DNA of 48,403 bases. Source: Candidatus Eiseniibacteriota bacterium (GTDB lineage Bacteria; Orphanbacterota; Orphanbacteria; Orphanbacterales; Orphanbacteraceae). Location of the stretch: NCBI GenBank assembly GCA_024276995.1, contig JAJRWB010000052.1:7501-55903 (forward strand), read 5' to 3'. This document shows positions 4,839-47,889 of this stretch, piece after piece (the stretch's first letter is position 1; each line of letters starts with the position of its first letter). Below the pieces are notes generated by a model. It saw only the letters and a list, made by a program, of their open reading frames with translations, had not been told where the DNA came from and did no database searches. Position numbers and translations under genes: made by a program.

Positions 4839-4993
4839 CATTCTCCTCCCGCGGGGCGGAGATTCCAAGGGGCATCGGCCCCCGACGAGCCGGGGGAACA
4901 CGGACACGGGATGGCGATAGAGTGATGCCCGTTTACACAGGCAGCCTCCCCGTCCCCGGAGGGAATCATAGCAGGTGCGACGACGGGCGGGAG

Positions 4994-5035: not shown

Positions 5036-5048
5036 AAAGGGTATGCGA

Positions 5049-5297
5049 TCAGCGCCTCGGGCGCGCTTCGTTTACGTTCAGATTGCGGCCGTCCATGTCC
5101 TGGCCGTTGAGGCTGCTGATCGCCTCGTCGGCCGCTTCATCATCCATCTCGACGAACCCGAAACCCCGTGGGCGACCCGTATCCCGATCTTCGATCAGGT
5201 TGACGGAATGAACCGTTCCATGCTGCTCGAAAAGGGAGCGGACATCCGCCTCGCTCGCACTGAAAGGAAGGTTGCCGACATAGATTCTCTTGCTCAT
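5049..5297 (-). CDS. RRM-domain RNA-binding protein
   Basis: An 82-aa protein that is a single RNA recognition motif. RNP2 is RIYVGNLPF (residues 4-12) and RNP1 is RGFGFVEM, the canonical aromatic positions for stacking on RNA bases. The last residues form a short basic tail (ARPRR) rather than the glycine-rich tail of many cyanobacterial Rbp proteins. The start is the ATG at 5297 (MSKRIYVG), with GGGAG 8 nt upstream; the 13 codons further upstream are not part of the family. It is monocistronic: a strong terminator follows, and a 299-bp gap precedes it. Such small RRM proteins are often cold-regulated, but nothing here proves that. Confidence 0.93.
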   Translation of the reverse strand: MSKRIYVGNLPFSASEADVRSLFEQHGTVHSVNLIEDRDTGRPRGFGFVEMDDEAADEAISSLNGQDMDGRNLNVNEARPRR

Positions 5298-7514: not shown

Positions 7515-9206
7515 TCAGTTGACCCGGATCACCTCGACCCTGCGGTTTTCCAGACGGCCTTCAGCAGTATCGTTCGAGGCAATCGGCTGCTCCTCGCCGA
7601 ACCCCTTCGCCGAAAGGCGACCGGAGTTCACGCCGTGATCGATGAGATACTGCATCACCGCTTTCGCCCGCGCTTCGGAAAGACTCTTGTTGTACGCCGC
7701 GTCACCGACCGCGTCGGTGTGGCCCTGAATCTCGATTTTCACATCGGGATTCGCGTCGAGAGCGCGCACCAGCTCGTCGAGGATCTGCTGCGAACCGATT
7801 TTGAGCTTCGCCGAATTGAACTCGAAGTGAACGCCGTTCAGGTTCTCCCGGGGGGCGATGTCCGGGCAACCATCGTCATCCATATAGCCGTTGTACGTCT
7901 CGGCGTTGTTCATGCACCGATCCTGGGCGTCGGCAATGCCGTCCTGGTCATTGTCCGTGTCGGGGCAGCCGTCTTCATCCTCGAAGCCGTCGAAATCCTC
8001 CGCTTCGCGGATGCACTGATCGTTGACGTCGAGGATACCGTCCTTGTCCTGATCGTCCAATTCCGGGCAGCCGTCGGCGTCTTCGATTCCGTCGAAATCC
8101 TCCGCCTCATCGGGGCACGAATCGAGTTCATCGATAATACCGTCGCCGTCATTATCGAATTCCGGGCAACCGTCCTCATCCTCGAAACCGTCGAAATCTT
8201 CGGCGGAGTCGGGACAAAGATCGTCATAGTCCGGGATACCGTCGCCGTCCTGGTCGCGCTCGCGCTCACCGAAGGCGAGGTTCAGCGACAGGCGATGGTT
8301 TTCGCCGAGGAACGATTCCATTTCGTTCACGAATGCATAGTCGATGCCGATACCGTAGAACTTCGGGACACGAAGACCGAGACCGAGGGACCAACCCTCG
8401 TCCTGGTTATCACGACCGAGATCGCTCACACCGGCACGGATCGCCATGAGATAACCGGGGTGGTACTCGAACCACGCCTCGGTACCGACATGGAACACCG
8501 TCTCATCGTCCTCGGTGTGTTCCACGTCCGCAGCGATCGTCAGATCGCCGATCGGCTTGAGAGCCACGCCGCCCCGAAGGTTGAACGGCACCTGCTCATC
8601 GCCGATTTCAGACCAGAGATCCTGGACCGTCACGCCGAAGCCGACATACCGGTTCGGTTCGAAGAAGGTTCCCACATCGATGCCGCCACCCGACTGCGAC
8701 TTATTGTCGATCTCCTGGTCGAAGATCTTACCCGAAACACCGAACCCGAACGGCCCATACTGCCGCGCGATGGTCAGATGAATCAGGTTGTCGGTCAGGT
8801 CGAAATTGCCCTGCGACGCACCGAACGAACTCCGGCTCTCGAAATCGTCCCAACCCGCGTTCGTCCAGCCGATACCGATCGAGGCCATGGAGAACGTCTG
8901 GGCATAGCCGAAGAAGTTGTGGCTCCTGTCATAGTCATAGGAACCGGTGTACATGAATGTGAACGCGAGATTGTCGACGCGCGACACACCCGCCGGGTTC
9001 CACATGATCGCCGTCGGGTCGTCCGCGACGGCGGTGAAGGCCCCGCCCATACCGAGGGCACGCGCGCCCACGCCGATCCGGCTATACGCGGCGGCGTGGT
9101 TGTCGCTCTGATTCCCACCGGCGAACAGGGGGCCTGCGGTTCCGACGAGAAGAGCAATGCTTCCGACGGCCGCCAGGACCGCTACAGCTCTGCCTCGAAA
9201 ACGCAT
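7515..9206 (-). CDS. PorV-type barrel / TSP3 calcium repeats / OmpA C-terminal hybrid
   Basis: A 563-aa outer-membrane protein. Residues 1-29 are a signal peptide ending LFA. From about 35 to 330 is a PorV/UPF0164-type beta-barrel, with the hallmark GARALGMGGAFTAVADDP and WNPAGVS near the start. From about 330 to 460 are four thrombospondin type 3-like calcium repeats of D-x-D-G-D-G-I type ending in DGCP. The C-terminus is an OmpA peptidoglycan-binding domain (VHFEFNSAKL, then GHTDAVG and NKSLSEARA). The ATG at 9206 has AGGAGGATCA upstream. In type IX secretion PorV is the outer-membrane shuttle that hands cargo to the sortase. Here a PorV-like barrel is tethered to the wall and lies just downstream of a giant cargo-like gene; the export role is inference. 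Confidence 0.92.
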   Translation of the reverse strand: MRFRGRAVAVLAAVGSIALLVGTAGPLFAGGNQSDNHAAAYSRIGVGARALGMGGAFTAVADDPTAIMWNPAGVSRVDNLAFTFMYTGSYDYDRSHNFFGYAQTFSMASIGIGWTNAGWDDFESRSSFGASQGNFDLTDNLIHLTIARQYGPFGFGVSGKIFDQEIDNKSQSGGGIDVGTFFEPNRYVGFGVTVQDLWSEIGDEQVPFNLRGGVALKPIGDLTIAADVEHTEDDETVFHVGTEAWFEYHPGYLMAIRAGVSDLGRDNQDEGWSLGLGLRVPKFYGIGIDYAFVNEMESFLGENHRLSLNLAFGERERDQDGDGIPDYDDLCPDSAEDFDGFEDEDGCPEFDNDGDGIIDELDSCPDEAEDFDGIEDADGCPELDDQDKDGILDVNDQCIREAEDFDGFEDEDGCPDTDNDQDGIADAQDRCMNNAETYNGYMDDDGCPDIAPRENLNGVHFEFNSAKLKIGSQQILDELVRALDANPDVKIEIQGHTDAVGDAAYNKSLSEARAKAVMQYLIDHGVNSGRLSAKGFGEEQPIASNDTAEGRLENRRVEVIRVN

Positions 9207-9354
9207 CACACTGATCCTCCTCTCACAGGGATCGAATGAAGTCTTCGCGCCGTCCCCCTTCAGGGACTTGAAGCTCATCCTTTGTTTATGTTCCTCGTAC
9301 ACTTTCCTGCCTTTCTTCATCCTGACAAGGTTCCCGGTCTTCCCGGGGACCTCC

Positions 9355-9431: not shown

Positions 9432-12400
9432 TTAGTTCGTGCCTCCGAAGCGGCGGACGGCGACCTTGACGGTTGCGGTCTTCGTGGCCGCGCCGTCGTT
9501 GGCGACGATCCTCGCGATGTAACCACCGCTCGCCACCATCGTTCCACCACTCGTCGTGCCGGCCCACTGGAACTCGACCTTTCCGGGTCCCACGTTCGGC
9601 AACGCACCCGTCCAGACCAAGTCGCCGGCGAAGTCGAAGATCGAAACCTCCACGTTGGCAGGCCGCTGCCCGCCGAGGAAGAAGGCGAAGTTCGCCTGGC
9701 CTTCGTCCGTGTTGACCGGGTTCGGCCACACCTGGGCGTCCGTGATCTGGAGAACCGAAGCGCCCACCGTCCACGTGTTGGCCACCTCGACCTTGTTGCC
9801 GCTGTGGTCCATGCCGGACATGGTAAGCGTGTAAGCGCCGACTTCGTCGATACCGACGATCTTCATATTCAGCCCGTCGGAGCTGACCGACAGATCCTTC
9901 GCGGTGACTCCGCTAGCGCTATCCTTCGATTTTTCGCCCGCCACCGGGAGGTCGCTCGGATGAACGCCGTCCCAACCCTCGATCACGCCGTTCGGCCCGG
10001 CGAGGGTGATGAGGAGCGTGCTCTCGTCGATACCGGAACCTTCGCTCGTCGATGTCGAATCGATGATCACCACCGAGACCGGAATCTCCGATCCGGGCGC
10101 CACCACCGAGTTCATCACGGGCGTGTTGAAAGTGATCACCGGCGCGCTCGCATCAATGATGAAGCGGCGTGCCACGTACTGGGATCCCACGTTACCGACG
10201 CAGTCGAACGGCCCGAAGATGTACTTCGTGAACTCTTCGTTGTCGTCGTCGCCGGTACCGGCGTCACCCGTGTTGATGTCGAGGCCGATGTGCTCGACCT
10301 TCGACGAGTAGAGCACCACCTCCACTTCCCGTCCGTCGTACGGCTTGAAGTTCACCGTGAGCGGCAGGGAAACGGTCAGATCCTGGTCGGCCGTGTACAC
10401 CGAGTCGTCGCAGTCCGCGGCATCGGAGTACTGGCAGATCGGCGGATCGTAGACGAGCATCGCCGGGGTGGCCGCCTGGATCAGCGCCCGCTCCCAGTAC
10501 TCGTCGATATCGTTCTGGTCGTCTTCGTTGTCGACGAGCCACACGTCCATCTTCAGCCCCATATCCTGGATCGGAATGGTGACCGTATCGGTGCTCGTCG
10601 TCACCGTCACCGTGCTCGAGATCGATCCAGAGCCGGTATTCGTGTTGTTCACGTCGACCGTCACGCCGCTCAACGACTGGAAGAAATCCCCGAAGATGAG
10701 GTTCAACACCGCGTTGATGCTGCTTTCCTGTGTGAACACGCCCGCCTCGTAGTCGCGTATCGTCAGGGCGATCGCGTCACGCGAACCGCCGATGAAGCAG
10801 TCGGTGGTGCTCACGCACGGACCGTTGAGGAAACCACCCGCCCATTCGACCTGCGGCGGAACCACGTCCACCTTGAAGTCGCGCTGGATCGTGTACCAGT
10901 AATCCTCGTCGTCGTTGCGATAGCGGAACGTCAGCGTATGCATACCGCCCGATAGCACGTCGCTCGGGAGCGTCGAATGGCCGTAGTAGTACGTGATGAC
11001 ATTGTCATCATCATTCTCCGCCACATTCACGAGCGTGCCGTTGCCGTCCACGTCGCCGGGTCCACCCGCCCAGAGCCGGTTGTCGATCCACAGCTCCACG
11101 TCGGGCTCGTCGATCGCACTCGACCCCGTCGAATTCTTAAGGAAGTCGGCGATCGTGATGTGGATCTCCGGCGACCCATTCGTGTAGCCGTCACACCACG
11201 GGTAGAACTCGACATTGTTGCCGCTCGAGATACCGATGAGGCTCCACACGTCCTGCGTGCAGAAGTCATTGGTCAGGAACGTCACGACGTTCGCGGTCGT
11301 ATCGATACGGACTTCGCTGATGCCGTCACCGTCCCAATAACCGCCGTCCTCCCAGTACCCGACCAGCAGTTCGCTCTCGTTCACCGTCACCTCGTTGCCG
11401 AGATAGTCGCTTACCGCGAGATCCTCATCGGTGTACCCGATAGAAACCTCGGCCCAGTAACCGTCGGTGAACTCCTGGCAACTCGTGCCGGCGCAATCGA
11501 GGAGGCGAATCTTGTAGGACTGGCCGATCGGCCTGATCCAGAAGCGCTGATCCTCGGACTGCGGGAAGTTCGGGGTATGAGTCGTGGTCATCAGCAACCC
11601 GCCGTACACTCCGTTGCCGGAGGGCACCTTGACCGTCAGGTTGTTGTTATCACCAGGAATGGCGACCGTGCCGCGCGAGCCGCCGCCGTTGGTCACCTCG
11701 TGGACGGCCACGACCTGGCGGATGATATCGATCCGGGCCGGTCCACCGTCATCGGCCTGACCGCTGTCCTCGACGACCGCCGCGTTCACGTAGACGTAAC
11801 CGCCGCAGCCGATCGAATCGAGCAGACTCTTCCATGTGAATCCGGACCATGCGTACTTATCGAGTTCGGCACCGTTGTTCATCGGGTCCATCTCGACGAT
11901 CTCTTCGAAGTTCGCCTCGTCGATGAGGCGATCGGCCGTCACGAGCACCCACGGTTTCGCGATCGAACCCCAGTCGAGGCTATCCACCACGTAGTCGGAG
12001 ACGGATAGCTCGACGTAGAAGTCGGTCTCGTGCGGCGCCACCAGTTCAACCTTGTCGTAAGCGATCCACGGGTCGGTATTCGGATGAACCGGCTCGAGAT
12101 CGCGGTTGAAGCGGTCGGCGACGACCCTAACCACCGTGTACGGCGGGTTCTGGTCGAAGTAGAGCACGTTGCTCGTATCGTCCGACGAAGGAGCGAGAGT
12201 GATCGCCACGGCCCGCAGCTCCATCTCGTCGCCGACAGTCCACATCGTCTCCGGACCGATGTCCATCGACGCGACCCACAGGGAGTCGGGGCTGTCACCG
12301 TCCGGGTTACCGGCCGGCTGAGTCTGGAGACCGAAGGTGACCCACGCGTCGTCGGCCGCCTTGCCGGCCGCACCGTCACCCGCGCCGTCGCCCTGATCCT

Positions 12401-14036
12401 TCTGGATCTTGCGGTACTGGAACATCACCTCGTCGACACGCTGGGTGCACCACTTGGTCGCGTAAACGTTCACCCTCGTGGTCCCGTTGATGTCGTTGAT
12501 GATATCCGGCTCCCAGCAGATCACGGCCGCACGCGGACTGGCGTCGTCGATGACGATCACCGAAATCCAGGGCGAGTATCCATCGTTCCCACATTCGTCC
12601 ACGGCTCTCGCCCGCACGTAGTACGTGCCGGCCTCGAGCGCGGTCGTGTTCCAGTGCGCGACATACAGACCGTTGTCGCCCGTCGGATCACCGAGGTCGA
12701 TGTGATACGCCGTACCGTTCGTGTCGACGGCCACCTCGAAGGAGACCGAATCGACAGCCGTCTCGAGCGGCCCGGGAATGTCCTGCTCATCGTCTGTCGC
12801 CGTGGCGAAGAGTCTCACCGGCTCTCCCGCCTGGATCTCGACCGACACGCCGTTGCTAATCTGAACCTGAAGCGTCGTCTGATCGGTTCCGCTCACGCGG
12901 TCGATCTCGACGTTCGTAATATTGACAACCGGCGCATCGATGTCGATGACCACCTCGGTCGCCATCACCACCCGCGTCGTGTTGCATGCGCTGTCGGTCG
13001 CCGTGACGCGGAAGTCGTACTTTCCACTCGGCGCGAGCGCGTCATCCACGTCCCACGTAGCGGAATAGTAACCCGTTCCGTCGTCGTAGAGCCACTCGGC
13101 GACTCCGGCGCTCGACCAATTCGTCGTGTCCTCGACCGACTTCTTCCATTCGAAGGAGAGTCCCGCGGACGTGTGCAGCTGATCGTCGCTGCTCGTCACG
13201 ATGAGCGGAACCACATGATCACCGTCATCGGCGTAGACGAACGGACACTGCTGTCCCTCCGGCGCGATCACGGTCACCGTCGGAGCAGTCCGGTCGATCA
13301 CGAGGGTAATCGGAGGCGAGCAGCTGCTCCCCTCGTTCGAGTTTCCGGCATCGTCGAAAGCGATCGCCCGGAAGAGGATCTCCCCTTCAGGCAGCGCGTC
13401 CGAATCCCACGTGGTGAGACGCCAACCGAAGTCGCCGTACTGAACGAGGTCCTGGTCGGCCAACGTCCACGTCTCTCCGTTGTTGGTGGAGTATTCGAAC
13501 GCCACCTTCTCCACATCGGTTTCACCGCCGAGGATCGTGGCGGTTAGCGACGCGAAGCCGCGAATCCGCTCATGATCGGGCTGCTCGACCGGATCGTGGG
13601 TCCGGCAAAGATCGCTCGTCAGGTGCGTGATCGTCGCGCACGGGGCGGTCGTATCGATCACGCAGAACGTGACGCCGCGACCGGCATTCCAGGCGCTCCA
13701 AACGCTGTCCGTATTGCACACCAGGTCGCTACCCACCGCGACGACATCGTAGCAGTTGCCCACCTCGAGAGCCGGCAGCTGTCTCGCCGTGTTCCACTCC
13801 CAGCTGTACGGCCGGGTGGAGTCGGGATTGACGTCCTTCGAGTCGATCGGGAAGAACCCGTTCGTCGTATCCATCACGAGCCACGAATCGGCGCCCGGCG
13901 TCGAGTCGTCGTGCGACCTCATGTACCAGGTGACCACGATATCGTCATCGGGATCGCCCGTCGAAACCGCGCTGATCGCGACCGGATCGCCACGGTTGAC
14001 CGTCACCTGCCCCTCCGACACACCGTTCACGGCCAC
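9432..14036 (-). CDS. C-terminal part of giant Ig-repeat surface protein, with FlgD-like Ig end domain
   Basis: Continues the gene at 14103-24260 in the same frame after a single TAA (14105-14103). The frame is open right up to that stop, and the GTG at 14036 is only a nominal start. It has no signal peptide of its own, so by itself it would stay in the cytoplasm. It consists of tandem Ig-like modules with recurring endings (FDDAGNSN, TDSACN, VDECGN) and beginnings (VIDRTAPTVTV). The last ~95 residues are a FlgD-like Ig domain: VWPNPVN, VSIFDFAGDLV, a W-A-G-T-T turn, then VASGGYIARI. This kind of domain ends many secreted proteins of FCB-group and related bacteria, often as a sorting or anchoring module. 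It reads into the PorV-OmpA gene 225 bp further on. Confidence 0.85.
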   Translation of the reverse strand: MAVNGVSEGQVTVNRGDPVAISAVSTGDPDDDIVVTWYMRSHDDSTPGADSWLVMDTTNGFFPIDSKDVNPDSTRPYSWEWNTARQLPALEVGNCYDVVAVGSDLVCNTDSVWSAWNAGRGVTFCVIDTTAPCATITHLTSDLCRTHDPVEQPDHERIRGFASLTATILGGETDVEKVAFEYSTNNGETWTLADQDLVQYGDFGWRLTTWDSDALPEGEILFRAIAFDDAGNSNEGSSCSPPITLVIDRTAPTVTVIAPEGQQCPFVYADDGDHVVPLIVTSSDDQLHTSAGLSFEWKKSVEDTTNWSSAGVAEWLYDDGTGYYSATWDVDDALAPSGKYDFRVTATDSACNTTRVVMATEVVIDIDAPVVNITNVEIDRVSGTDQTTLQVQISNGVSVEIQAGEPVRLFATATDDEQDIPGPLETAVDSVSFEVAVDTNGTAYHIDLGDPTGDNGLYVAHWNTTALEAGTYYVRARAVDECGNDGYSPWISVIVIDDASPRAAVICWEPDIINDINGTTRVNVYATKWCTQRVDEVMFQYRKIQKDQGDGAGDGAAGKAADDAWVTFGLQTQPAGNPDGDSPDSLWVASMDIGPETMWTVGDEMELRAVAITLAPSSDDTSNVLYFDQNPPYTVVRVVADRFNRDLEPVHPNTDPWIAYDKVELVAPHETDFYVELSVSDYVVDSLDWGSIAKPWVLVTADRLIDEANFEEIVEMDPMNNGAELDKYAWSGFTWKSLLDSIGCGGYVYVNAAVVEDSGQADDGGPARIDIIRQVVAVHEVTNGGGSRGTVAIPGDNNNLTVKVPSGNGVYGGLLMTTTHTPNFPQSEDQRFWIRPIGQSYKIRLLDCAGTSCQEFTDGYWAEVSIGYTDEDLAVSDYLGNEVTVNESELLVGYWEDGGYWDGDGISEVRIDTTANVVTFLTNDFCTQDVWSLIGISSGNNVEFYPWCDGYTNGSPEIHITIADFLKNSTGSSAIDEPDVELWIDNRLWAGGPGDVDGNGTLVNVAENDDDNVITYYYGHSTLPSDVLSGGMHTLTFRYRNDDEDYWYTIQRDFKVDVVPPQVEWAGGFLNGPCVSTTDCFIGGSRDAIALTIRDYEAGVFTQESSINAVLNLIFGDFFQSLSGVTVDVNNTNTGSGSISSTVTVTTSTDTVTIPIQDMGLKMDVWLVDNEDDQNDIDEYWERALIQAATPAMLVYDPPICQYSDAADCDDSVYTADQDLTVSLPLTVNFKPYDGREVEVVLYSSKVEHIGLDINTGDAGTGDDDNEEFTKYIFGPFDCVGNVGSQYVARRFIIDASAPVITFNTPVMNSVVAPGSEIPVSVVIIDSTSTSEGSGIDESTLLITLAGPNGVIEGWDGVHPSDLPVAGEKSKDSASGVTAKDLSVSSDGLNMKIVGIDEVGAYTLTMSGMDHSGNKVEVANTWTVGASVLQITDAQVWPNPVNTDEGQANFAFFLGGQRPANVEVSIFDFAGDLVWTGALPNVGPGKVEFQWAGTTSGGTMVASGGYIARIVANDGAATKTATVKVAVRRFGGTN

Positions 14037-26834: not shown

Positions 26835-27845
26835 CTACCGGAAAATGCTCTTGACTCCTCCCCAGGAGGTCGGCTGGGTGGCGGTGAAGTTGCAGCCCAC
26901 CGGAAGGGCGCCGATGAGGCCGCATGATTCCTGGGCGAGCGCCGGGCTCGTGCTCCCCACCGTGAGATCGCACGTCGCGTCGTCGCAGAACTGGGGATCC
27001 GCCACGATCGTCCCCTCGCCCGGGGTGACGCCCGAGAAGTCGACGCCGGTGTTGCCGTAGACGACATTGCAGCCGCCGTGGACGGTCGATCCCTGCGCGA
27101 GGAACCCGGCGGCGCCGTCGTTGAAGGCGATGATATTGTTCATCACCGTGGCGACCGAATTGACGATGGAGATTCCCGATCCCCACCCGGCTGCGGTGTT
27201 GTTGGCGATCGAGTTGTTCCGAATCTGGACATCGTATTGGCACAGCGCGATGTGAATGCCGCCGCTCGACACGAGGCCGGTGTTATTGCAGATCACGTTG
27301 AACTGGATCGTCGGGGCGCCGCCCGACCAGTGTCCCTGGACGTAGATTCCGCCCCCCTCGTGGGCGGTGTTGTCGCGAATCGTGCAGAACTGGATCGTAG
27401 GGCTTCCCCCCTCGCCGACGTAGATTCCGCCGCCGTAGTTCTGGCTCTCGTTCCCCTCGATCAGGCAGTTGTTGATGAGCGGGTCCGTGGCGGGTTCCAG
27501 GAAGAGACCGCCCCCCTTGTAGCCGAATCCGCCGGTGATGCGGAAGCTTTCCACGGTAGTGCTCGACGTGCACCCGGTGGGCACCGACACGGTGACGTCC
27601 AGCCCTCCTCCGTCGATGGTGGTCAGCTCGGGACCAGCTCCCCTGAGCTGGACCCCTTTCTTCAACGTGATGTTCTCTACGAACGTTCCGGCGGCGACCT
27701 GGACGATGTCGCCGCTCGAGGCGCCGTTGATCGTCGCCTGGATCGATCCGCCGGAGCCGACGTTCCAGGTGACCGCCCCCGCGGGAAGGGCGGCGAACGC
27801 GACGAGCAGGGCGGCTCGAAGGATGATGGACAGTGGGCTTCTCAT
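26835..27845 (-). CDS. Exported right-handed beta-helix protein with C-terminal W-G-x-V-K-x-I-F-R tag
   Basis: A 336-aa secreted protein. The signal peptide runs to PAGA (about residue 24), then TWNVGSGGSIQATINGA, a typical start of pectate-lyase-like helices. Regular beta-helix coils follow (NNCLIEGNESQNYGGGIYV, IRDNTAHEGGGIYV and similar). The C-terminal block has CDDATCDLTVGSTSPAL and a cysteine in GALPVGC. The very last residues are TSWGGVKSIFR, shared in form with the two proteins at 47269 and 47950. The ATG at 27845 has GGAGG 8 nt upstream. There is no visible catalytic motif, so a surface or sugar-binding structural role is only a guess. Confidence 0.92.
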   Translation of the reverse strand: MRSPLSIILRAALLVAFAALPAGAVTWNVGSGGSIQATINGASSGDIVQVAAGTFVENITLKKGVQLRGAGPELTTIDGGGLDVTVSVPTGCTSSTTVESFRITGGFGYKGGGLFLEPATDPLINNCLIEGNESQNYGGGIYVGEGGSPTIQFCTIRDNTAHEGGGIYVQGHWSGGAPTIQFNVICNNTGLVSSGGIHIALCQYDVQIRNNSIANNTAAGWGSGISIVNSVATVMNNIIAFNDGAAGFLAQGSTVHGGCNVVYGNTGVDFSGVTPGEGTIVADPQFCDDATCDLTVGSTSPALAQESCGLIGALPVGCNFTATQPTSWGGVKSIFR

Positions 27846-34277: not shown

Positions 34278-37200
34278 TTACCGGGCCCCTTCCACCTGCT
34301 GCGACGAGCCGGGGAGATCGGGGGGGACGAACACCGCCTTACCGATCGACTCGGCCCTTTCATCGCCGCGCCACGCCCGTAGGCGATAGAGGTAGACGCC
34401 GTACGCCACCCGGTCGCCGTCGTCGTCGAGACCGTCCCACGCGTCCGGGTTGGCGTTGTACCCCGCCCGTGCGGAAAGGCCGCGAAGATGCCGGATCCTC
34501 CTCCCCCCCACGGTGAACACTTCCACCTCCACGCGGTCGGCGAAATCGGTGAGATCATAGTAGAAACCGGTGGTCTCTTCGGCGGGATTCGGGTAATTCA
34601 GCAGGTTCACGATACGGAACTTGTCGTCCACCCGGAAGGTAAATGACTTCGTCTGGGCGTTGATCCCGATGACCAGCTCATGGTCGCCGCCCGAAAGCCG
34701 CGGGCGCGCGGTGGCGATCCAGTTGTTCGCGTCGACCTTACGAAGGGTGTCGAGCGCCACGCCGACACCGTCGATCCTGAAGAACACATCTTCCTCGTCC
34801 ACCGGAAGGGGTGTTTCGATTTCGGCCCGGATTTCCGGCGCCGGGGAGACGAGTTCCCCCGGGGCGATGGAACGCCCGTCGAAGGTGACGTTTACGCCGA
34901 TCGATACTTTGAGGGTGAATGTTCCGGGACGGCCGTTGTAATCGACGGCGCGGAACACGACGTCGTACGAGGCGATCGTGTTCACCGTCGTTTCGTAGCG
35001 GAGAATCCACGCCCTCCCGTCGTCGGCGAGGGATGTGTCCTTCTCCAGGGCGTAGAGCGTACTATCGACGAGGCCGTCCCTGTCCCGGACGGTGATCGAA
35101 TCGGTGTCGAGAACCGTTTCGTCGTGAAGGAACGCTTCGATCGTCACCGGCGATCCGTCGGCGTGTCCCCGAAGAACCGAGCCGTCTTCCACCGGCACGC
35201 CGTCGACGAAGACTTCGAATGTCGGAACGCCGGCGTCGAGCACGAGAGCGGGATCGCCGAAAAGAGCGTACCTCCGAATGACGCTCGGTTTCTCCTTCTC
35301 CACCGCGACGAAATCGACGAGCCCGAGGGCGAGCACTTCTCCGAGGGACCAGCGGGGCACTCCCTTGTACCAAACGGGCCGCTCGTCCCCGGCTGCCGCG
35401 GGGATCACGCCGGGAGTCTGGAAGAAATATTTTAGTATGGAATTATTCAGCTTCAGGTTCGGCCGGAGGAATTCGATCCCCGTCGAGCCGAACGTCGCCA
35501 CGGCGCCCCCCTTCCGACTCGCCATCATCTCCTCGGTGATCGCCTCGCTCCCTTGGGATTTCCAGCGGTCGAATTCCGATATGGAACATCCGTACGCCAT
35601 GAAGATGTACGGCTTCCCTTCGTTGTCCGTTAAAGAGTCGATGTCGTCGCTCCGCCTGTTCCTGTAGTCCGCCGAGTTGCGAAGGATCACTTCGTGGGTG
35701 AGCACGTTCCGGTTTCCATGGCCCTGGAAGTTGACGAGGAAGACGCCTTCGCCGTTCCACTCGTTGAACAGCGTCGATGTGATCGCGTCGCGGCTGTGAT
35801 CGATCACCTCGTCCACATCCGCCTGAATCGAGTCGGGGAACCTGCTGTCGGGGGTGGGGCAGGGATAGAGTTCGTGGTAGCCGTCGGTGAACCGGGAAAG
35901 GAAAATGTTCACCGTGTCGATCCCCCGGGCGGCACTCGCCTTCACCTCTTCCGAAAAGAACCTCGTATTGTCCTCGAACTGGTTCTGGTAGACGTTTCTC
36001 ATGCACATCGACTCGAAGGTCCACGCATCGTCCGCCACGAACATCACCCGGTTCCTCCACGCGTCGCTCCCGGTGAACCGTTCGTAGGCGATCGTTTTAT
36101 CCGCCATCGTCTCCACATCCTCCGGGTTATCCGCCGTGAACCGGCCGACGATTACATCGAGAAGCGCGTCGCTGTCGCCGTCGAGGAAGCCGTACCATAG
36201 GTCGCTCGCGTCCCAGTGATCACCGCTCCCGTAGATGGTGGCCGCATAGCCGGGGTACGATGGAACGTAGTCGAAGTCGGAGGCATTGTTGTTCGACCCT
36301 CCCCTGTTCGTGGCGATCCCCTTGTAGTCCTCGAAGCCGTCCCCCACGAGGAGCACCCAGCCGGGCGGCGTGTCCCACCTTTCGAAGCCGTACCGGATGT
36401 AGTTCTGGATCGCGACGGGATCCTTGATGCCGCCGTTGAACTCGTCGTAGACGTCGCTGATCCGTGCGCGCACGACGCGATAGCCGGTCGACCGGCGGTA
36501 GTCGACGAAGTCGTCGAGGGCATCATAGAAGTCGTCGTACGTGATGATCAGGTAGTCCCCCGGAGCGCCGGCGAGATCGGTGGGCGCATCCCGAACGATC
36601 TTCGACGAGGGAAGGGTTCGCGCGCCCGAGGCGGTGGCCGCCACGTAACGCCGCGGCGACGCCGTGGAGTCCCGGAGCACCACGGAATATGTGTTCCCCG
36701 ACTGGACCACGGAATCGGCGCTGAGGCGCACCGGCGCGTAGATATCGGTGACATCGAGAATTATCACGTCGGGATCGGAAAACCGCTCCAGTTCCATCCG
36801 GACCGCGCCGGAACGCTCGCCGGTGGAGAAGATGAGGTAGTCATCCACGGCACGGTAAAGGAAGTCGCCGTGGATTTCGTACCAGTCGAGGAAGCCGCCC
36901 GCGCCGGTGATCTCCTCTGTCGAGTCGGTGCTGCGGGAACCGAAGTACCGGAATCGGTTGACCCCCTCGACGAGATCGGCCGCCGAAAAGACCCTGTCGC
37001 TCCGGAAGAGCATTCCGATCTCTCCGTCCACCCGTTCGTTGAACACCGTGTCTCCGTTCGCCTCGCTCACGAGGCGATAACGGTGATACGCGGACTCGCC
37101 GTTCACCAGCTGGGTGCTCACGGTCATCGCCTTGATGCCGAAAAGTGCCGACGTGTCCGGTACGGGGAGGATGATCTCGGTGAGCCGATTGTTGTTCAGA

Positions 37201-38405
37201 TCCCCCATGCCGTAGTAGTTGTCCACCGTGTCGATCGGCGTGTTCCAGTTGTAGATCGCGTCGATCTCCCAACGGATCGAATCGGGAAAAGAAACGAGGT
37301 TCGTCGCGCCGGGAAGATCGCTCCACGGCGGCCTCGTTTCCAGCGGATTGCGCACCCCCTCGAAGGAGAGGAAGTAGACCGCCTCGTAGGCGAACCGGTC
37401 GTCGTCGTCGCGCTCCATCCTGTCTTCACGGAAACCGGGAAGCCAGGCGCGGATCTCGTCGCCCCCGTTGAAAAGACCGTTGCCGTCGGCATCGATCACG
37501 TCGATCGGGATGTTGATCTCGGTGAACGGGTCACCGAGCGCCTCGAGAAGGGAGTCGGAGAAGCCGCGCCGGTAAAGGGCGATCGAGGAGACCGGTTCGT
37601 TGTCGGCGAGACCGGCGGAGGCGAGGTCATCGAAGGTGATACGATAGAGTCCCCCCTTCTCCACGAAGAGCTTGTACTCATCCTTCGTCGCGGCCCGCTT
37701 CGGAACGCCCGCCATCGGCCTTGCCGGACGGCTCCTGAATCGTTTCCCCTGACCATAGTTGAGAAGTGCTCCCTGGTAGATCCCCTCCCACCTTCCCTCG
37801 TCGCCCACGCTCTCCCTCGAAAGGCCCTTCATCATCGACGGCGACGTGAAATCGATTCTCACCTCGATCGACCGGTAGGCGCGCAAGACGCCGGTGGCGG
37901 GATTCACTTGGAAAGGGGCGATCCGCAGCGGGGTCATCGCCTGGTGGCGGAATCGGCCCGGCGCGCCGAGAGCAGCGATCCGGGAGGGATACCAGGAAGA
38001 GGCACGGTAGAACGACTCATCCACGTACGGCACGAAGCCGGGCACCGTTCCGTTCGCGACGGGTGCCTCGCGGGGCACCGGTCTCACCGGGGCGCCGGGA
38101 AGATCGTCGTACTCCACGTCGAGAATCGTCACCTTCGCCCGGGCGCCCTCGGGCAGGGCGATCCAGTATCCCTCCAACGGGAGTTCGGGACGGCCCGGGA
38201 TCGACGTGCCGCCGCCGGTGAGTCCGCGAACCTCTCTCCAGGAGCGTCCGTCGGCGGAGGTATCGGAAATCCGGTACCCCTTCGGTGTGATCGTCACGGT
38301 GAGGCTGCTTTCCCCGTCGGGGATCGCCGAAACGGAGGCGAACACGCCCGGCGCGAGGAGGGAAATCGCCATCGCCTGTAGAATACCTCTGCAAGCCGTT
38401 CGCAA
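34278..38405 (-). CDS. C25 (gingipain/PorU-like) cysteine peptidase with FlgD-like C-terminal domain
   Basis: A 1,375-aa secreted protein. From a TTG start at 38405 it has a good signal peptide (h-region GILQAMAISLLAPGVFA, then SVSA). The first part is PorU/C25-type beta domain (YKLFVEKGGLYRITFDDL). The peptidase region begins YLIITYDDF, has LLVGDGFEDYKG, and keeps the catalytic dyad: His in FQGHGN (about H896) and Cys in YGCSIS (about C940). Ig-like segments follow, and the end is a FlgD-like Ig domain (LLNYPNP, then VEVEVFTVGGRRI). PorU is the C25 sortase of type IX secretion, while gingipains are its cargo; the CTD-like end favours cargo, the N-terminal domain PorU. The upstream 57 codons conflict with the divergent gene and are excluded. 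Confidence 0.92.
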   Translation of the reverse strand: MRTACRGILQAMAISLLAPGVFASVSAIPDGESSLTVTITPKGYRISDTSADGRSWREVRGLTGGGTSIPGRPELPLEGYWIALPEGARAKVTILDVEYDDLPGAPVRPVPREAPVANGTVPGFVPYVDESFYRASSWYPSRIAALGAPGRFRHQAMTPLRIAPFQVNPATGVLRAYRSIEVRIDFTSPSMMKGLSRESVGDEGRWEGIYQGALLNYGQGKRFRSRPARPMAGVPKRAATKDEYKLFVEKGGLYRITFDDLASAGLADNEPVSSIALYRRGFSDSLLEALGDPFTEINIPIDVIDADGNGLFNGGDEIRAWLPGFREDRMERDDDDRFAYEAVYFLSFEGVRNPLETRPPWSDLPGATNLVSFPDSIRWEIDAIYNWNTPIDTVDNYYGMGDLNNNRLTEIILPVPDTSALFGIKAMTVSTQLVNGESAYHRYRLVSEANGDTVFNERVDGEIGMLFRSDRVFSAADLVEGVNRFRYFGSRSTDSTEEITGAGGFLDWYEIHGDFLYRAVDDYLIFSTGERSGAVRMELERFSDPDVIILDVTDIYAPVRLSADSVVQSGNTYSVVLRDSTASPRRYVAATASGARTLPSSKIVRDAPTDLAGAPGDYLIITYDDFYDALDDFVDYRRSTGYRVVRARISDVYDEFNGGIKDPVAIQNYIRYGFERWDTPPGWVLLVGDGFEDYKGIATNRGGSNNNASDFDYVPSYPGYAATIYGSGDHWDASDLWYGFLDGDSDALLDVIVGRFTADNPEDVETMADKTIAYERFTGSDAWRNRVMFVADDAWTFESMCMRNVYQNQFEDNTRFFSEEVKASAARGIDTVNIFLSRFTDGYHELYPCPTPDSRFPDSIQADVDEVIDHSRDAITSTLFNEWNGEGVFLVNFQGHGNRNVLTHEVILRNSADYRNRRSDDIDSLTDNEGKPYIFMAYGCSISEFDRWKSQGSEAITEEMMASRKGGAVATFGSTGIEFLRPNLKLNNSILKYFFQTPGVIPAAAGDERPVWYKGVPRWSLGEVLALGLVDFVAVEKEKPSVIRRYALFGDPALVLDAGVPTFEVFVDGVPVEDGSVLRGHADGSPVTIEAFLHDETVLDTDSITVRDRDGLVDSTLYALEKDTSLADDGRAWILRYETTVNTIASYDVVFRAVDYNGRPGTFTLKVSIGVNVTFDGRSIAPGELVSPAPEIRAEIETPLPVDEEDVFFRIDGVGVALDTLRKVDANNWIATARPRLSGGDHELVIGINAQTKSFTFRVDDKFRIVNLLNYPNPAEETTGFYYDLTDFADRVEVEVFTVGGRRIRHLRGLSARAGYNANPDAWDGLDDDGDRVAYGVYLYRLRAWRGDERAESIGKAVFVPPDLPGSSQQVEGAR

Positions 38406-38483
38406 TGCGGGAGATGTCCTTTCGAAGGGGTCTGTTATGAGAATAATACATGGAACGCATCGGGGAAAGCCGCAATTCCAATG

Positions 38484-38510
38484 ATGACAGGGGCCGCGAA
38501 ACGGTATAGA
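38484..38510 (+). promoter_or_regulatory. Candidate promoter of the FG-GAP gene, giving a near-leaderless mRNA
   Basis: ATGACA (38484-38489), 15-bp spacer, TATAGA (38505-38510). The -10 is only 11 bp before the ATG, and no Shine-Dalgarno is visible (CCCCGGGCC precedes the ATG). It lies in a 116-bp divergent gap shared with the C25 gene. Confidence 0.4.
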
Positions 38511-38521
38511 ATCCCCGGGCC

Positions 38522-40093
38522 ATGAAATCGATCGTTTTTTCCACGTTTCTTCTCTTTTCGCCCCTTTTCGCGGCACCGCCGGCCACCGCCGATCCGGACG
38601 GGGCGGCGGTGATCGATCTCCACTTCGACAGTCACGTGGTGGTGTACGGACCGGAGCGGGGCTGCCGGTTCGGCGAGGGACTCGCGGCGGGTGATTTCGA
38701 CGGCGACGGTATCGACGACCTCCTCATCAGCGCTCCCTGGTCGGACGGACCGGGGGGAGAACGAGCGAACTGCGGCAAAGTCTACCTCTTTTTCGGCTCC
38801 CCCGATCGCCGGGAAGAGATGGGCGAAGTGGACGCCGCCGAGGCGGATGTGGTGTTCACCGGTGCGCGCCGCGAGGATCAGCTCGGAAGAAGGCTTTCCG
38901 CCGCCGATCTCGACGGCGACGGAAGGGATGATCTCGTTCTCGGCACGATGTACGGCGATGCCGACGACGGTGCCCGGAGAAACTGCGGGCAGGCGTTCAT
39001 CTTCTTCGGCCGGTCGAGGGACCGCTTCGAGGAGAACGTCGACCTCGCCGAAAGCGCGGCGGATGTCACCGTCTCGGGAGCGGATGAAAAGGACTTCCTC
39101 GCGGGAGAAATGTGCACCGGCGATATCGACGGCGACGGTCTCGGCGACCTGATCCTCGGCGCTTTCTACGGGGACGGTCCGGACGACGACCGCTACCACG
39201 CGGGAGAGGCGGTGATCATCTTCGGCAGGGAGAGAAAGGCCTTTCCCGCCGAGATCGATCTCGCGAAGGATCCGAACCCGACGATCTACGGCGCCGAGGC
39301 GACCGACACATTCGGAAGATCCCTCGCCGCGGGAGACCTCGACGGCGACGGGCGGGATGAGCTGATCGTCGGCGCCTACTACGCCGACGGGCCGGAGAAT
39401 ACGCGGATCAACGCGGGCGAAACGTATCTCTTTTTCGGGCGCAACCGCTACGATTTTGACAAGGTCATCGACCTCGCGGACAGCACGGAGGTGGTGATTT
39501 CGGGAGAATGGGACGGCGACGTTTCCGGGCGATCGGTCGCCACGGCCGATATGGACGGCGACGGTCTCGATGACCTCCTGATCAGCGCCCACAAGTCGAG
39601 CGCCGAACACGATCTCGATCCCAGCGGCGACCAGGGACGGATCTACGTGATTTACGGCGCGCCGCGGGATAGGATTCCCGGACGGATCGATCTGAGAAGG
39701 GCCGCGCCCGGGTGGATCGTAGGGGGCGAAAGAAGCGATAATCTCGGCTGGCCTCTCGCGGCGGGCGCATGCAGTCCGGACGGAGCGACGTTCCTCCTCG
39801 CCGGGGCGAAACAGGCGGACGGCGAGGATCGGGAGAGGACCGAAGCGGGGGCGGCGTATCTCGTCGGCCCGTGGAAGAGGAGCGATCTCGCCGGCGGCAT
39901 CCCGATCGACTCGATCGCCTCGCTCACCATTATCGGTGCCGACCCGAAGGATTACACGCCGTTCGACGCCGTCCTCTTCGACTGGGACGGTGACGGCCGC
40001 TGCGAAGCCGCCCTCGGTGTCCCCTCCTCCCAGGGAAAAGACGGTAATTCTCCGCAGACGGGGGAGGTGTCCGTCGTATTCACCGAAGATTAG
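38522..40093 (+). CDS. Secreted FG-GAP (integrin-alpha-like) propeller protein
   Basis: A 523-aa exported protein. The signal peptide is short (MKSIVFSTFLLFSPLFAAPP). About seven FG-GAP blades follow. Six carry the calcium loop D-x-D-G-D-G (for example GDFDGDGIDDLLISAPW, DLDGDGRDDLVLG, DMDGDGLDDLLIS) and one is degenerate, where ACSPDG replaces it. The repeat length of about 65 residues fits a seven-blade propeller. There is no C-terminal sorting domain; it ends GEVSVVFTED. It is divergent from the C25 peptidase and ends 12 bp from the convergent TPR gene. Likely a surface or periplasmic calcium-dependent binding protein. Confidence 0.93.
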   Translation: MKSIVFSTFLLFSPLFAAPPATADPDGAAVIDLHFDSHVVVYGPERGCRFGEGLAAGDFDGDGIDDLLISAPWSDGPGGERANCGKVYLFFGSPDRREEMGEVDAAEADVVFTGARREDQLGRRLSAADLDGDGRDDLVLGTMYGDADDGARRNCGQAFIFFGRSRDRFEENVDLAESAADVTVSGADEKDFLAGEMCTGDIDGDGLGDLILGAFYGDGPDDDRYHAGEAVIIFGRERKAFPAEIDLAKDPNPTIYGAEATDTFGRSLAAGDLDGDGRDELIVGAYYADGPENTRINAGETYLFFGRNRYDFDKVIDLADSTEVVISGEWDGDVSGRSVATADMDGDGLDDLLISAHKSSAEHDLDPSGDQGRIYVIYGAPRDRIPGRIDLRRAAPGWIVGGERSDNLGWPLAAGACSPDGATFLLAGAKQADGEDRERTEAGAAYLVGPWKRSDLAGGIPIDSIASLTIIGADPKDYTPFDAVLFDWDGDGRCEAALGVPSSQGKDGNSPQTGEVSVVFTED

Positions 40094-43860: not shown

Positions 43861-45980
43861 TCCGGCCTTTCTCCTTCCGCACGGGAAAGCGCCCGCTCGG
43901 CCATCCGGATGTTCTGGATCACGGGGTTGGCCGGGTCGTAGGCGAGAATCCTCTTCCACGTGGCGATCGCCCCGTGCAGATCCCCTCCATGATACTGTAC
44001 CAGGCCGATATTGCAGAGCGCCGCCGAGTGTCGAGGATCGAGAGAAAGCGCGCGGTTGTATTCCGCGAGCGCCTCGTCGACGAGTCCCTCTTCTTCGAGG
44101 ATTCCGCCGAGTCGGTTCCTCAGGTCGGCGTTCTCCCCGATCCGCGCCAAGCCGTTGCGGACCGCCTTTTCCGCCTCGGCGAGTTTCCCATCCGCCTCGA
44201 GAGCATTGCTCAGGTTCCGGACGAAAAGAATGTTTCGCGGATCGAGTTCGCACGCCTTCCGATACTCTTCCACCGCCTCGCCGAATCGATCCAGGTCGTA
44301 AAGACAGTTTCCCAGGTTGTAATGGGCGATCGCCCAGTCGGGGCGAAGCCGGATCGCCTCCCTGAACTCGGGAAGCGCTTTTTCATCTTCCATGCGACCT
44401 CGAAGAGCGATGCCGAGGGTGACGTACGCTTCAGCGAAGGTCGGTATGATCCTCAGCGCTTTCCGACTGTACTTCTCGGCCTCATCGTACCTCCCCTCCC
44501 CTTGATAAAGGCGGGCGAGGCCGTAAAGGGCGGTGGCGTGATCGGGGAGGAACTCGAGGGCGCTGCGATACGTCTTCTCCGCTTCACGGACCTCGCCGAT
44601 GTCATAAAGGCTGTTCGCGAGGTGGGTGAGAGAGAAGCCGCGCGAGGCGCGCCGTTCTCCCCCCGGCGACGCCTCGTTGGCGAGCACGAAGAGGAGTCCC
44701 ACCCCCGCCACACTCCACAGCCGCCGCGAAAGGCCCCACGAGCGGAAACCGGCCGCGAGGGCCGTCACGCCGACCGCACAGACGGGGATCAGCAGGGCCG
44801 CGAAGGGCATCCTGTACCGGGAATGCGTGTAGAAAAGGAGCGTGGAGAGAAACTGGGCGGCGAGGAAGAGGAAAAGAACCCCTCCTTTCCGCTTTCTCCA
44901 AAGGACGATCATCCCGACCACGCCGAGCGGCGCGATCAGGCCGAAGATGAAGGGGAGCCACCGGAGCGCGCGGTTGCTCTCTTGGTAGAAATACAGGTCC
45001 GCATTGTCCGGGATTTCATAGTCGTTCCAGAAGAGCGCCGTCTTGCGGGCGAGGAGAACGAGCCAGTCCACCGGATGGCCGGCGATCCACTCCGCCCCCC
45101 GCCGCATCCAGTAGCGGGACACCTCCGAGGGCTTGAGGCGCATTCCCGCCTCCTTCTCGGCGATCCGCTTCGATTCGTAGACATTGATATTCTCCGGCGT
45201 CAGGAGGATCCCCTCCGGAAAGGAGAAGACGCCCCTCGCCTTCTCGTTGTTTCCCATGTAGAAATTGACGCCGCCGTGGGAGGAGACGAGGACGAAATCC
45301 TCCCCCCGGATCCAGTTCCGAGCCGTTACCGGGAGGATCGGGAGGAGGAAGCCCACTGCGAGGAGTGCCGCGCCGGACGCGCGGCGTGTCCGCCGCCGAT
45401 CGAGAAAGAGCCCGGCGAGGAGGAGCGGCAGGAGGAGAATCAGGTTCCCCTGGACGAGGGTCCCCACGCCGAGGAGAAGTCCGGCGCCGAAGAGAAGGGG
45501 GGAAGAGCGCCTCTCCTCCCAACGGAAGAGAAGCTCCACGAGCGCCAGATTCACGAAGATTCCCGCCGTGGTGGGAAGGAGGAAGACCTCGAAGAAAAGG
45601 AGCGGCCTGTAAAACGCGCCGATCAACAGCGCCGCCGTTCCCGCCGTCGGTCCTCCGAGGCGCTTGGCGATCTTGTAGATCAGGACGAGGCTTCCCAGCC
45701 CAAGAAGCATCTGGAAGATCACCACCGGGAGCGTCGCCTCGCCGAACAGTTTGTAGAAGAGTCCCAGGAAGTACGGGTAGAAGGGATTCGTGGCGAACAC
45801 GGCGAAGGGATACCCGTCCCCCGCCGCGATCCTCTTCGCCAGGTCGCTGTAGACGCGGGCGTCGACCATCGGGTGGCGGAAAAGAGGGAACGAGCGGATT
45901 TCGAGAAGAAAGGCGAATCTCCAGGCCGCGGCGGCGATCACGATCGATACGGGAAGGAGTGGGAACTTTCCTCGGCTCAC
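43857..45980 (-). CDS. ArnT/PMT-like membrane glycosyltransferase fused to TPR array
   Basis: A 707-aa protein. The N-terminal ~450 residues are a GT-C-type membrane enzyme with about ten hydrophobic segments. The first periplasmic loop carries acidic residues (MVDARVYSDLAKRI) where PMT/ArnT enzymes have their catalytic Asp/Glu. Later features include TARNWIRGEDF and a YTHSRYRMP loop. From about 490 are seven or so TPRs (THLANSLYDIGEVREAEKTY, AHYNLGNCLYDLDRFGEAV). Such enzymes move a sugar from a lipid carrier to lipid or protein on the outer face of the inner membrane. The GTG at 45980 overlaps the beta-helix stop (GTGA); the 31 codons upstream are shadow sequence. Donor and acceptor are unknown. 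Confidence 0.9.
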   Translation of the reverse strand: MSRGKFPLLPVSIVIAAAAWRFAFLLEIRSFPLFRHPMVDARVYSDLAKRIAAGDGYPFAVFATNPFYPYFLGLFYKLFGEATLPVVIFQMLLGLGSLVLIYKIAKRLGGPTAGTAALLIGAFYRPLLFFEVFLLPTTAGIFVNLALVELLFRWEERRSSPLLFGAGLLLGVGTLVQGNLILLLPLLLAGLFLDRRRTRRASGAALLAVGFLLPILPVTARNWIRGEDFVLVSSHGGVNFYMGNNEKARGVFSFPEGILLTPENINVYESKRIAEKEAGMRLKPSEVSRYWMRRGAEWIAGHPVDWLVLLARKTALFWNDYEIPDNADLYFYQESNRALRWLPFIFGLIAPLGVVGMIVLWRKRKGGVLFLFLAAQFLSTLLFYTHSRYRMPFAALLIPVCAVGVTALAAGFRSWGLSRRLWSVAGVGLLFVLANEASPGGERRASRGFSLTHLANSLYDIGEVREAEKTYRSALEFLPDHATALYGLARLYQGEGRYDEAEKYSRKALRIIPTFAEAYVTLGIALRGRMEDEKALPEFREAIRLRPDWAIAHYNLGNCLYDLDRFGEAVEEYRKACELDPRNILFVRNLSNALEADGKLAEAEKAVRNGLARIGENADLRNRLGGILEEEGLVDEALAEYNRALSLDPRHSAALCNIGLVQYHGGDLHGAIATWKRILAYDPANPVIQNIRMAERALSRAEGERPE

Positions 45981-47203
45981 CGCCGGTTTGCTCCGTCGAG
46001 GGGAGGCTCGCCCGGACGGGGCGGTTCGCCGCATACTGTTTCGTAGCAGCCGGCGAGCGGTTGTTCGAGGCAAGGAGAATCGCGTCGCGGCCTTTGATCG
46101 GAAAGATCGTCGCAGAGCATCGGGTCGACTCTACGCGTCCCGCCCGGCTCCACGGCGCCCGAGGGAGGATCGGCGATCCACACGATGTTCTCCGCCACGG
46201 TCAGTTCCACGCCGCCTTCTCGGAGCAACCACGGTCCCGGCGAGCGAACGAAGACGTTCCCGGAAATCGTCGCCTCGCCGCCGCCGTCCGCACGGATTCC
46301 GCCGGAGACGGGACTGTAGTTGCGCACCAGCGTATTGCGCGTACACTCGAGGGAACTCTTCCACGAGGAGACGGCGCCTCCCTTGTAGCCGCAACGATTC
46401 TCCACCATCACGTTTCCTTCCACGCTCCCTTCCACCTCTTGGAGGAACGAGACCGCCCCCCCCCTCATGCGCGCGTCGTTCCGTACGAAGCGGTTCGCCC
46501 CGATCGTGACGCGGCACCTCTTGAGAACCGCGACACCTCCTCCCGAGTCGAAGAGGACCCGGTTACCGTCGAAGATATTTCCCCGGATCTCGGCGGAGGC
46601 ATCCTCGAGGAGCGCCATTCCTCCCCCGTGGAAGATCACGGAGTTGCGCTCGAACACGTTGTTTTCCACCACTCCCCGCGCCCCGCGAAGAAAACAGAGT
46701 CCCCCCCCATGATAGCGGGCGTAGTTGTGGACAATCGAATTGTTCCGGATCTCGGCGCTCCAGTCGCCGTTGATGAGGATACCTCCGCCGTTTCCCCCAT
46801 CGAACCAGCCGTTCCGGATGACGAATCCGTCGACCACCACATGCCCGCCCGAGGAACCGAAGAAACGGAACACCGCACTCTCCTTCCCGTCGGCGTCCAC
46901 GATGACAGGGAAGAGGGCCGGGTCACGACGGGAATAATCGGCCGACCAACCTCCCAGGAGAACGACTCCCTTCGAGGAGGCGACCCCCTCCCTGTAGAGA
47001 CCCTCCGCCACCAGGATAGTGTCGCCCGATGCGGCCAGGTCGATCGCGCCTTGCACCGACGACACGTCGCGCGGAACGCGCACCACGGCGCCCGACGCAT
47101 CCCCCACCGCCGATAGCCCGAGGACGAGGCCGAGAACAAGGGCGACGACCGGCGCCGGACGCACCGGCATACGCTCCGTATTCTGTGCGGATGTGTATCT
47201 CAT
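45977..47203 (-). CDS. Exported right-handed beta-helix protein, first gene of TPR-enzyme operon
   Basis: A 408-aa protein with a signal peptide (VVALVLGLVLGLSAVGDASGA) and regular beta-helix coils (RNNSIVHNYARYHGGGLCF, ENNVFERNSVIFHGGGMAL, RGNIFDGNRVLFDSGGGVAV). The start VPRDVSSVQGAIDLAASGDTILVAEG is typical of this fold. It lacks the W-G-x-V-K tag of the 26835 protein and ends in a Pro-rich segment. Two starts are possible: ATG at 47203, only 8 bp after a perfect TATAAT and so nearly leaderless, or ATG at 47170, which gives a shorter signal peptide but a badly spaced CGGAG. It overlaps the glycosyltransferase start, so it is co-translated with the modifying enzymes downstream. Confidence 0.88.
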   Translation of the reverse strand: MRYTSAQNTERMPVRPAPVVALVLGLVLGLSAVGDASGAVVRVPRDVSSVQGAIDLAASGDTILVAEGLYREGVASSKGVVLLGGWSADYSRRDPALFPVIVDADGKESAVFRFFGSSGGHVVVDGFVIRNGWFDGGNGGGILINGDWSAEIRNNSIVHNYARYHGGGLCFLRGARGVVENNVFERNSVIFHGGGMALLEDASAEIRGNIFDGNRVLFDSGGGVAVLKRCRVTIGANRFVRNDARMRGGAVSFLQEVEGSVEGNVMVENRCGYKGGAVSSWKSSLECTRNTLVRNYSPVSGGIRADGGGEATISGNVFVRSPGPWLLREGGVELTVAENIVWIADPPSGAVEPGGTRRVDPMLCDDLSDQRPRRDSPCLEQPLAGCYETVCGEPPRPGEPPLDGANRR

Positions 47204-47268: not shown

Positions 47269-47889
47269 TCACCGGATGATCGAACGGTTTCCCTTCCACA
47301 CGATCCGCCTCGGCGCCGACGTGGGACAGCGGCAGCTGTCGCTCTCTTCGCCCACCGGGCAGAATCGGCCGGTGGCGTACGCCACGGTGAAATAGGCGGA
47401 CCACCGGGAATCGATGATCAACCGGATCGGCTCGTCCTTCGCCGCGGTGTAGAAAGCCGTTCCGATCACCGCCGGCGAATCCCACGGCTTCGTGAATGTG
47501 AAGTCGGTCGCCTGCACGGCATAGCATTTCGCCCGCCGGTTCGCCTCTTCGATCCACGAAGATCGGTCGGCCGGGTCGACGATCAGCGGGATATCGGTCC
47601 ACCCGTCGGGAGTGTGGTAGACGAAACTGTCGATGAGGACCGTGCTGCTGTCGTGAACGCAGAAGGTGCACGCCACCGAAGTGAGGGGATTCGGCATCCG
47701 GCTGAAAAAGAGATCGAACGTGCCGTTTCGCCCGGCAGCGCCGCGCGGGTCGATCGTCATCTCGTCCGCGCCGGAACACTCGAGATCGCCGTCCCGGTCG
47801 ATACCCACATACTGGGCGGAAACCGCCGGCGCGAGGATCGCCAGCAAGAAAAAGTGTATCGCAGCAACGCCGCTCAATCGATGCTCCAT
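47269..47889 (-). CDS. Exported Cys-containing protein with C-terminal W-K-G-N-R-S-I-I-R tag
   Basis: A 206-aa unrecognised secreted protein. The signal peptide is HFFLLAILAPAVSA (cleavage near residue 25). An early acidic stretch (GIDRDGDLECSGADE) may bind calcium. The body shares CTFCVxDS, QATDFTF and an ending with the neighbour at 47950, so the two are paralogs. Near the end are CPVGEESDSCRCP and then RRIVWKGNRSIIR, a divergent form of the C-terminal tag. The ATG at 47889 has GGAGG 10 nt upstream, partly inside a hairpin. It may be a surface protein stabilised by disulfides; no enzyme motif is seen. Confidence 0.85.
   Translation of the reverse strand: MEHRLSGVAAIHFFLLAILAPAVSAQYVGIDRDGDLECSGADEMTIDPRGAAGRNGTFDLFFSRMPNPLTSVACTFCVHDSSTVLIDSFVYHTPDGWTDIPLIVDPADRSSWIEEANRRAKCYAVQATDFTFTKPWDSPAVIGTAFYTAAKDEPIRLIIDSRWSAYFTVAYATGRFCPVGEESDSCRCPTSAPRRIVWKGNRSIIR

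Follow-up and report, generated by a model that had tools for sequence, protein, structure and literature searches.

A short peptide at the extreme C-terminus of exported proteins is very probably a C-terminal sorting signal, judging from the sequences that carry it. Our best reading, which we favour with rather less assurance, is that, within the FCB superphylum, the peptide is a short linear signal tied to the type IX secretion system (T9SS). The tag is real, widespread and apparently undescribed. It has no model in Pfam or NCBIfam, a full-text literature search for six versions of its sequence returned no paper, and nothing was found that links C-terminal sorting with Eisenbacteria.

The window, that is, the whole stretch of 48,403 nucleotides analysed here, spans C34:7501-55903, and its right end coincides with the end of the contig (55,903 bases). 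All its features described below lie on the minus strand. The gene at 26835-27845 encodes a right-handed parallel beta-helix protein of 336 amino acids (PF13229, E=5.9e-13; AF2 model with pLDDT 90.8) that carries a signal peptide and terminates in TATQPTSWGGVKSIFR, directly followed by the stop codon. According to the genome-wide consensus, the last nine codons before the stop (26838-26864) encode the core tag WGGVKSIFR, and the extended motif reaches up to 26885. The second tagged gene, at 47950-48402, also codes for an exported protein and has lost its 5' end at the contig end. Its product finishes in SATEDVSWGAIKELFR, again with the stop directly after, and its core tag WGAIKELFR (47953-47979) is directly preceded by SATEDVS. 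Both proteins align over their last 35 residues or so, that is, in the tails alone. The preliminary description had counted a third example at 47269-47889. That protein does have a signal peptide, as does the 26835 protein, both as described before. However, its tail, WKGNRSIIR, lacks the invariant G and K, and the protein is a paralogue of the one encoded at 47950 (29% identity, E=7e-14). For this reason its tail is best read, from the alignment, as a decayed copy of the tag that provides no independent evidence. The shared tag thus stands for the first two proteins, exactly at the stop, and falls for the third as a separate case. The degenerate-tag paralogue is adjoined at 45977-47203 by a beta-helix protein related to the 26835 protein (E=1e-7), which has neither tag nor T9SS domain and ends in PLDGANRR.

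The motif is bound to the very end of proteins. Searched as a DNA pattern, W-G-x-[VIM]-K-x-h-[FY]-R-stop gave 20 matches in the host genome, and the reversed pattern none. When the search was left unconstrained after the lysine, 31 WGx[VIM]K sites were obtained, 24 of which precede a stop by exactly four codons (23 sites) or five (one site), and the sequence following them is nearly always x-L/I-F-R-stop, independently of the pattern. Among the seven others, one lies seven codons from the stop, one is internal to a ribosomal protein S1-like sequence and the rest are unrelated or out of frame. All seven genomes searched in the window's phylum contain the tag, with 8-37 copies each and no match for the reversed control. 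The preliminary description had proposed to look for the motif at exact C-termini of signal-peptide proteins in this and related genomes, and the outcome was strongly positive. Among 145 genomes spread across bacteria, at least eight tags per genome were found in five lineages (the window's phylum, G031, G072, G075 and G140) and one or two in ten further genomes or lineages, with controls at zero throughout. By record title, tag-bearing lineages include Eisenbacteria, Krumholzibacteriota, Latescibacterota, Zixibacteria and others, mostly assembled metagenomes; such titles can be misassigned, and we doubt the attributions to Reyranella and Verrucomicrobia. Tagged genes use all three stop codons and a wide range of synonymous codons and, therefore, selection acts on the peptide, which is not a DNA repeat. 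As the inventory was built on DNA-pattern searches, divergent tags are missed by it. Two loci of the host genome show altered tags. L278 (C77:17830-17859, minus strand) has an in-frame stop directly before the tag (CTAPPTQT, stop, ETSWGGIKKLFR, stop), either a nonsense loss of the tag or an assembly error. In L276 (C70:390) the protein ends in SWGAVKSLFFDGD before the stop, the last tag residues being replaced, possibly by a frameshift.

The pattern searches provided a collection of at least 186 tagged proteins, with the consensus [TSP]-[AP]-[TV]-E-x-[ST]-[ST]-W-G-x-[IV]-K-x-[LM]-[FY]-R-stop. The core comprises the last nine or ten residues, [ST]-W-G-x-[IV]-K-x-[LM]-[FY]-R, and [TSP]-[AP]-[TV]-E-x-x is usually present upstream. 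W, G, K, [IV] and [FY] were forced by all patterns, and the frequencies of E(-13) and [ST](-10) were partly forced by one of them; the final residue is R in 96% of the 186. Tagged proteins have a median length of 230 amino acids. According to a simple home-made heuristic, 176 of the 186 have a signal peptide, compared to 358 of 689 (52%) other likely ORFs in the same loci, and some of the ten without it are cut at contig or locus ends. A transmembrane-like window in the last 60 residues was detected in a single one. When the 186 were clustered without their last 20 residues, at least 71 families resulted, 44 of them singletons. Pfam domains in 69 representatives were diverse (LamG, CHRD, PKD, FG-GAP, lamin-tail, thioester, starch-binding, Omp28 and beta-helix), each being present in two of them at most. 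No Pfam or NCBIfam model recurs across these representatives or matches the tag, and none of them matches the T9SS domains TIGR04183, TIGR04131 or type C. They do include the NCBIfam choice-of-anchor domains J, W and X, whose names describe the body and not the tail.

Structure predictions place the tag outside the fold. In the AF2 model of the 26835 protein the beta-helix has a pLDDT of about 97, while residues 321-336 fall below 50 and contain a lone short helix (328-335). For an unrelated small tagged family, the model shows a beta-sandwich with a pLDDT above 90, from which the tail stands apart as a helix at about 53. The objection anticipated earlier, that these residues might belong to a conserved domain core, is thereby excluded (about 40-53 in the tail versus 90-98 in the body). 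The cysteines noticed near the tag did not fare as well. A Cys lies 10-20 residues from the end in 49% of the 186 proteins, versus 47% and 40% in two segments further upstream; with no positional enrichment, a cysteine requirement is rejected. One tagged family (L013, L103, L121 and relatives) has lipoprotein-like signal peptides (for example GLVGCSNSSGP and ISLSCGNDDSPTG), and from these sequences the tag may also sit on lipoproteins.

Further information about the role of the tag was obtained by searching the phylum with the beta-helix body alone, its tail removed. The homologues end in three ways: in the tag, in a classical T9SS type A/FlgD-like domain (finishing in SGIYFARMRAEGFQATRKMVLVR) or directly after the body (finishing in GALGKGCD). 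The closest ones (39-51% identity) include tag-ending proteins. Since homologous bodies end in the tag, in a T9SS domain or in nothing, the tag fills the slot of a sorting signal, and this pattern of interchangeable signals supports such a role on sequence grounds. The claim that the tag is distinct from the FlgD-like domain is borne out, as it takes the place of this domain on homologous bodies. Choice-of-anchor bodies are known to bear different C-terminal sorting signals in different species. A comparable interchange of tails on homologous bodies was reported for GlyGly-CTERM (PMC3237569).

The other type of tail and putative parts of the T9SS are encoded in the window itself. The large protein at 9432-14036 has a FlgD-like/T9SS-type C-terminal domain (FlgD_ig, E=3e-11; match to the T9SS-dependent M6-like tail NF052323). 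The ORF at 34278-38576, mechanically delimited and with its true start further downstream, encodes a C25 peptidase resembling the T9SS sortase PorU (NF033707 T9SS_sortase, E=1.2e-76 and 258 bits, under the equivalog cut-off of 420; Peptidase_C25, E=1.5e-72; Propeptide_C25; FlgD_ig). At 7515-9320, a PorV/PorQ-family outer-membrane barrel (NF033709 PorV_fam, 96.4 bits, cut-off 90) is fused to a C-terminal, peptidoglycan-binding OmpA domain (PF00691). Elsewhere in the phylum, several PorV-family matches belong to frames with a length of some 600-700 codons, which may resemble this fusion.

Across genomes, the tag goes together with the translocon protein SprA (TIGR04189), which scores above its curated cut-off in all seven genomes of the window's phylum and in none of 14 named control genomes. 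In the 145-genome set, SprA is above the cut-off in 20 of 21 tag-bearing genomes versus 19 of 124 tag-free ones (Fisher p=7e-13), and outside the window's phylum in 13 of 14 tag-bearing genomes (p=7e-9). The exception, G108, has a weak SprA match (E=1.4e-4). This association could be a reflection of shared ancestry, as the lineages with the tag seem to be phyla of the FCB group. Possession of T9SS is not enough for the tag to occur: in 168 genomes of another phylum, whose reference member bears SprA, no genuine tag was found, the sole match carrying an in-frame stop inside the motif. Because many genomes have T9SS but no tag, the tag is an addition to the system and no universal T9SS signal. 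Each genome of the window's phylum (G000-G006) has 11-15 PorV/PorQ-family matches and 100-148 TIGR04183 matches, and therefore the tag would work beside a rich classical T9SS. These seven genomes, which also have a PorU-like protein along with SprA, appear to represent a large T9SS in a lineage outside Bacteroidota. Gene neighbourhoods were less informative. PorV-family genes, their proximity judged by eye from coordinates, showed no apparent enrichment beside tagged genes of the phylum and lie within about 3 kb in two clear cases among approximately 165, so a dedicated carrier does not emerge there. An all-against-all ORF comparison of the loci for a recurring non-tagged neighbour, such as a candidate processing enzyme, returned general families and synteny of close relatives, and no tagged gene was seen adjoining SprA in eight SprA-region loci.

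Six SprA-bearing lineages (G007, G013, G051, G057, G080 and G087) have one strict tag match each, located on an orthologous protein of about 130 residues that consists of a signal peptide, one Fn3-like domain and TWGSIKA[ML]FR. Mean pairwise identity among these orthologues is 95% in the last ten residues versus 26% in the body. The same Fn3-like domain is found in large ORFs of SprA-bearing genomes. In G007 the tagged gene comes after PorD (NF052317, E=1.2e-25), on whose other side there is a PorV-family gene (E=7e-11); PorD and PorV are both included in the extended translocon of F. johnsoniae (PMC10994853). The tagged gene of G057 has a PorQ-like gene (E=2.3e-34) at a distance of about 0.6 kb. 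No recognised T9SS parts were found among the neighbours of the tagged gene in the other four lineages.

The tag resembles the classical T9SS C-terminal domains, types A (TIGR04183/PF18962), B (TIGR04131) and C, in several respects. Both combine a signal peptide with a C-terminal signal devoid of a transmembrane segment, both are found on many unrelated cargo bodies in SprA-bearing genomes, the same bodies take either tail, and both have a basic residue near the end and a terminal R/K. In the window's phylum, classical type A domains end in K/R, four mostly hydrophobic residues and R/K. In Bacteroidota, the C-terminal lysine and the last residues are required for T9SS export (PMC11285876, PMC10994853), the near-C-terminal lysine being almost invariant and in contact with PorV (PMC10994853), and the T9SS signal of HBP35 was mapped to the last 22 residues (PMC11285876). 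However, the classical domain is a beta-sandwich of 70-100 residues, whereas the tag has about 10-16, disordered in AF2; its W-G-x-I/V-K core has no counterpart in that domain, and its tail is predicted as a helix instead of a beta strand. All T9SS signals documented so far are domains that fold, with about 70-100 residues each (PMC10202324), and P. gingivalis requires this domain architecture (PMC11285876). It is tempting to propose that the tag may be a stripped-down carrier of the information held at the end of the classical domain, which is speculation because the tag is predicted to be helical. A possible model for the reading of such a helix is provided by SkpA of the F. johnsoniae extended translocon, whose C-terminal helix docks onto PorV from the periplasmic side (PMC10994853). 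In this case a short C-terminal helix binds a T9SS carrier from the periplasm, although SkpA is a translocon subunit and not a cargo, and its likeness to the tag is one of description.

We hypothesize the following mechanism. Tagged proteins cross the inner membrane by means of the N-terminal signal peptide that their sequences display. In the periplasm, the folded body is predicted to leave the tail free. The tail probably forms a short amphipathic helix, one face of which bears W, I/V and L/F, along with the invariant K and the terminal R. A T9SS-linked receptor would read this tail, the likeliest candidates being the SprA translocon and its PorV-like carriers, and the protein would then be moved to the cell surface or held there. 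The tag would act alongside the classical T9SS C-terminal domain and be found for the most part on small proteins. That tagged proteins take the T9SS route seems to us the better bet. Whether the tag makes up a new class of T9SS signal we consider evenly balanced; this would be a linear peptide of ten residues with no folded domain, which by itself would direct small exported proteins through SprA or hold them at the surface. Such a signal would serve several FCB-group phyla, and one of the 11-15 PorV-like proteins would be its own carrier.

A different partner is conceivable, though we think it rather unlikely: the tag could be a retention or docking peptide for an outer-membrane or periplasmic partner outside T9SS, its co-occurrence with SprA arising from the great age of both in the FCB group. 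The confounding of the SprA association by phylogeny and the existence of tag-free, T9SS-bearing genomes are in line with this, and one strictly conserved tagged protein per genome in six lineages would fit one fixed partner. However, the exchange with the T9SS domain on homologous bodies points more specifically to T9SS, and T9SS genes lie beside the single-copy tagged protein in two of the six lineages. The C-terminal residue that PDZ and tail-specific proteases recognise is usually hydrophobic. A quality-control or processing tail for a periplasmic tail-specific protease or PDZ chaperone, which would set turnover and not location, is improbable in our view; an unfolded and exactly C-terminal tag does look like such signals, but R is last in 96% of the proteins, W, G and K are invariant in the set that was searched, and the tag is absent from most lineages whereas such proteases are widespread.

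A C-terminal motif shared by many unrelated exported proteins of one genome, with swappable tails, also recalls the signals of membrane-embedded sortases (PMC3237569). GlyGly-CTERM/rhombosortase, PEP-CTERM/exosortase, MYXO-CTERM/myxosortase and LPXTG/sortase share with the tag a short motif on tens of unrelated exported proteins per genome, sporadic distribution across lineages and swappability. Their signals, however, consist of motif, transmembrane helix and basic cluster, whereas the tag is a motif at the very end with no helix in the membrane. As 185 of the 186 tagged proteins lack a C-terminal transmembrane segment, with no basic cluster behind one, a signal of the PEP-CTERM, GlyGly-CTERM or MYXO-CTERM type is very improbable and was rejected. 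Least probable of all is that the tag matches are due to chance or form part of a conserved domain. The weakness of the third example, homologous to the second, could be taken in that sense, but the lack of control matches in the window's phylum and in the 145 diverse genomes, the 71 unrelated families, the tail outside the fold in AF2 models and the varied stop and synonymous codons, which argue against a DNA repeat, speak against it, and this origin was rejected as well.

C-terminal sorting signals allow the prediction of surface proteomes in unculturable organisms, and in lineages that are represented mostly by metagenomes the tag points to dozens of candidate surface proteins per genome. 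Should it be a T9SS signal, it would set the part that the translocon has to recognise apart from the folded domain present in all earlier cases, and would account for the use of T9SS by proteins that have no room for an 80-residue domain. Tagged genes also occur in arrays: in a relative, locus L254 (G004:C21, positions 2207-5218) contains a tandem series of tagged paralogues, at least four in number and all of the 47950 family, together with one similar copy without a recognised tag.
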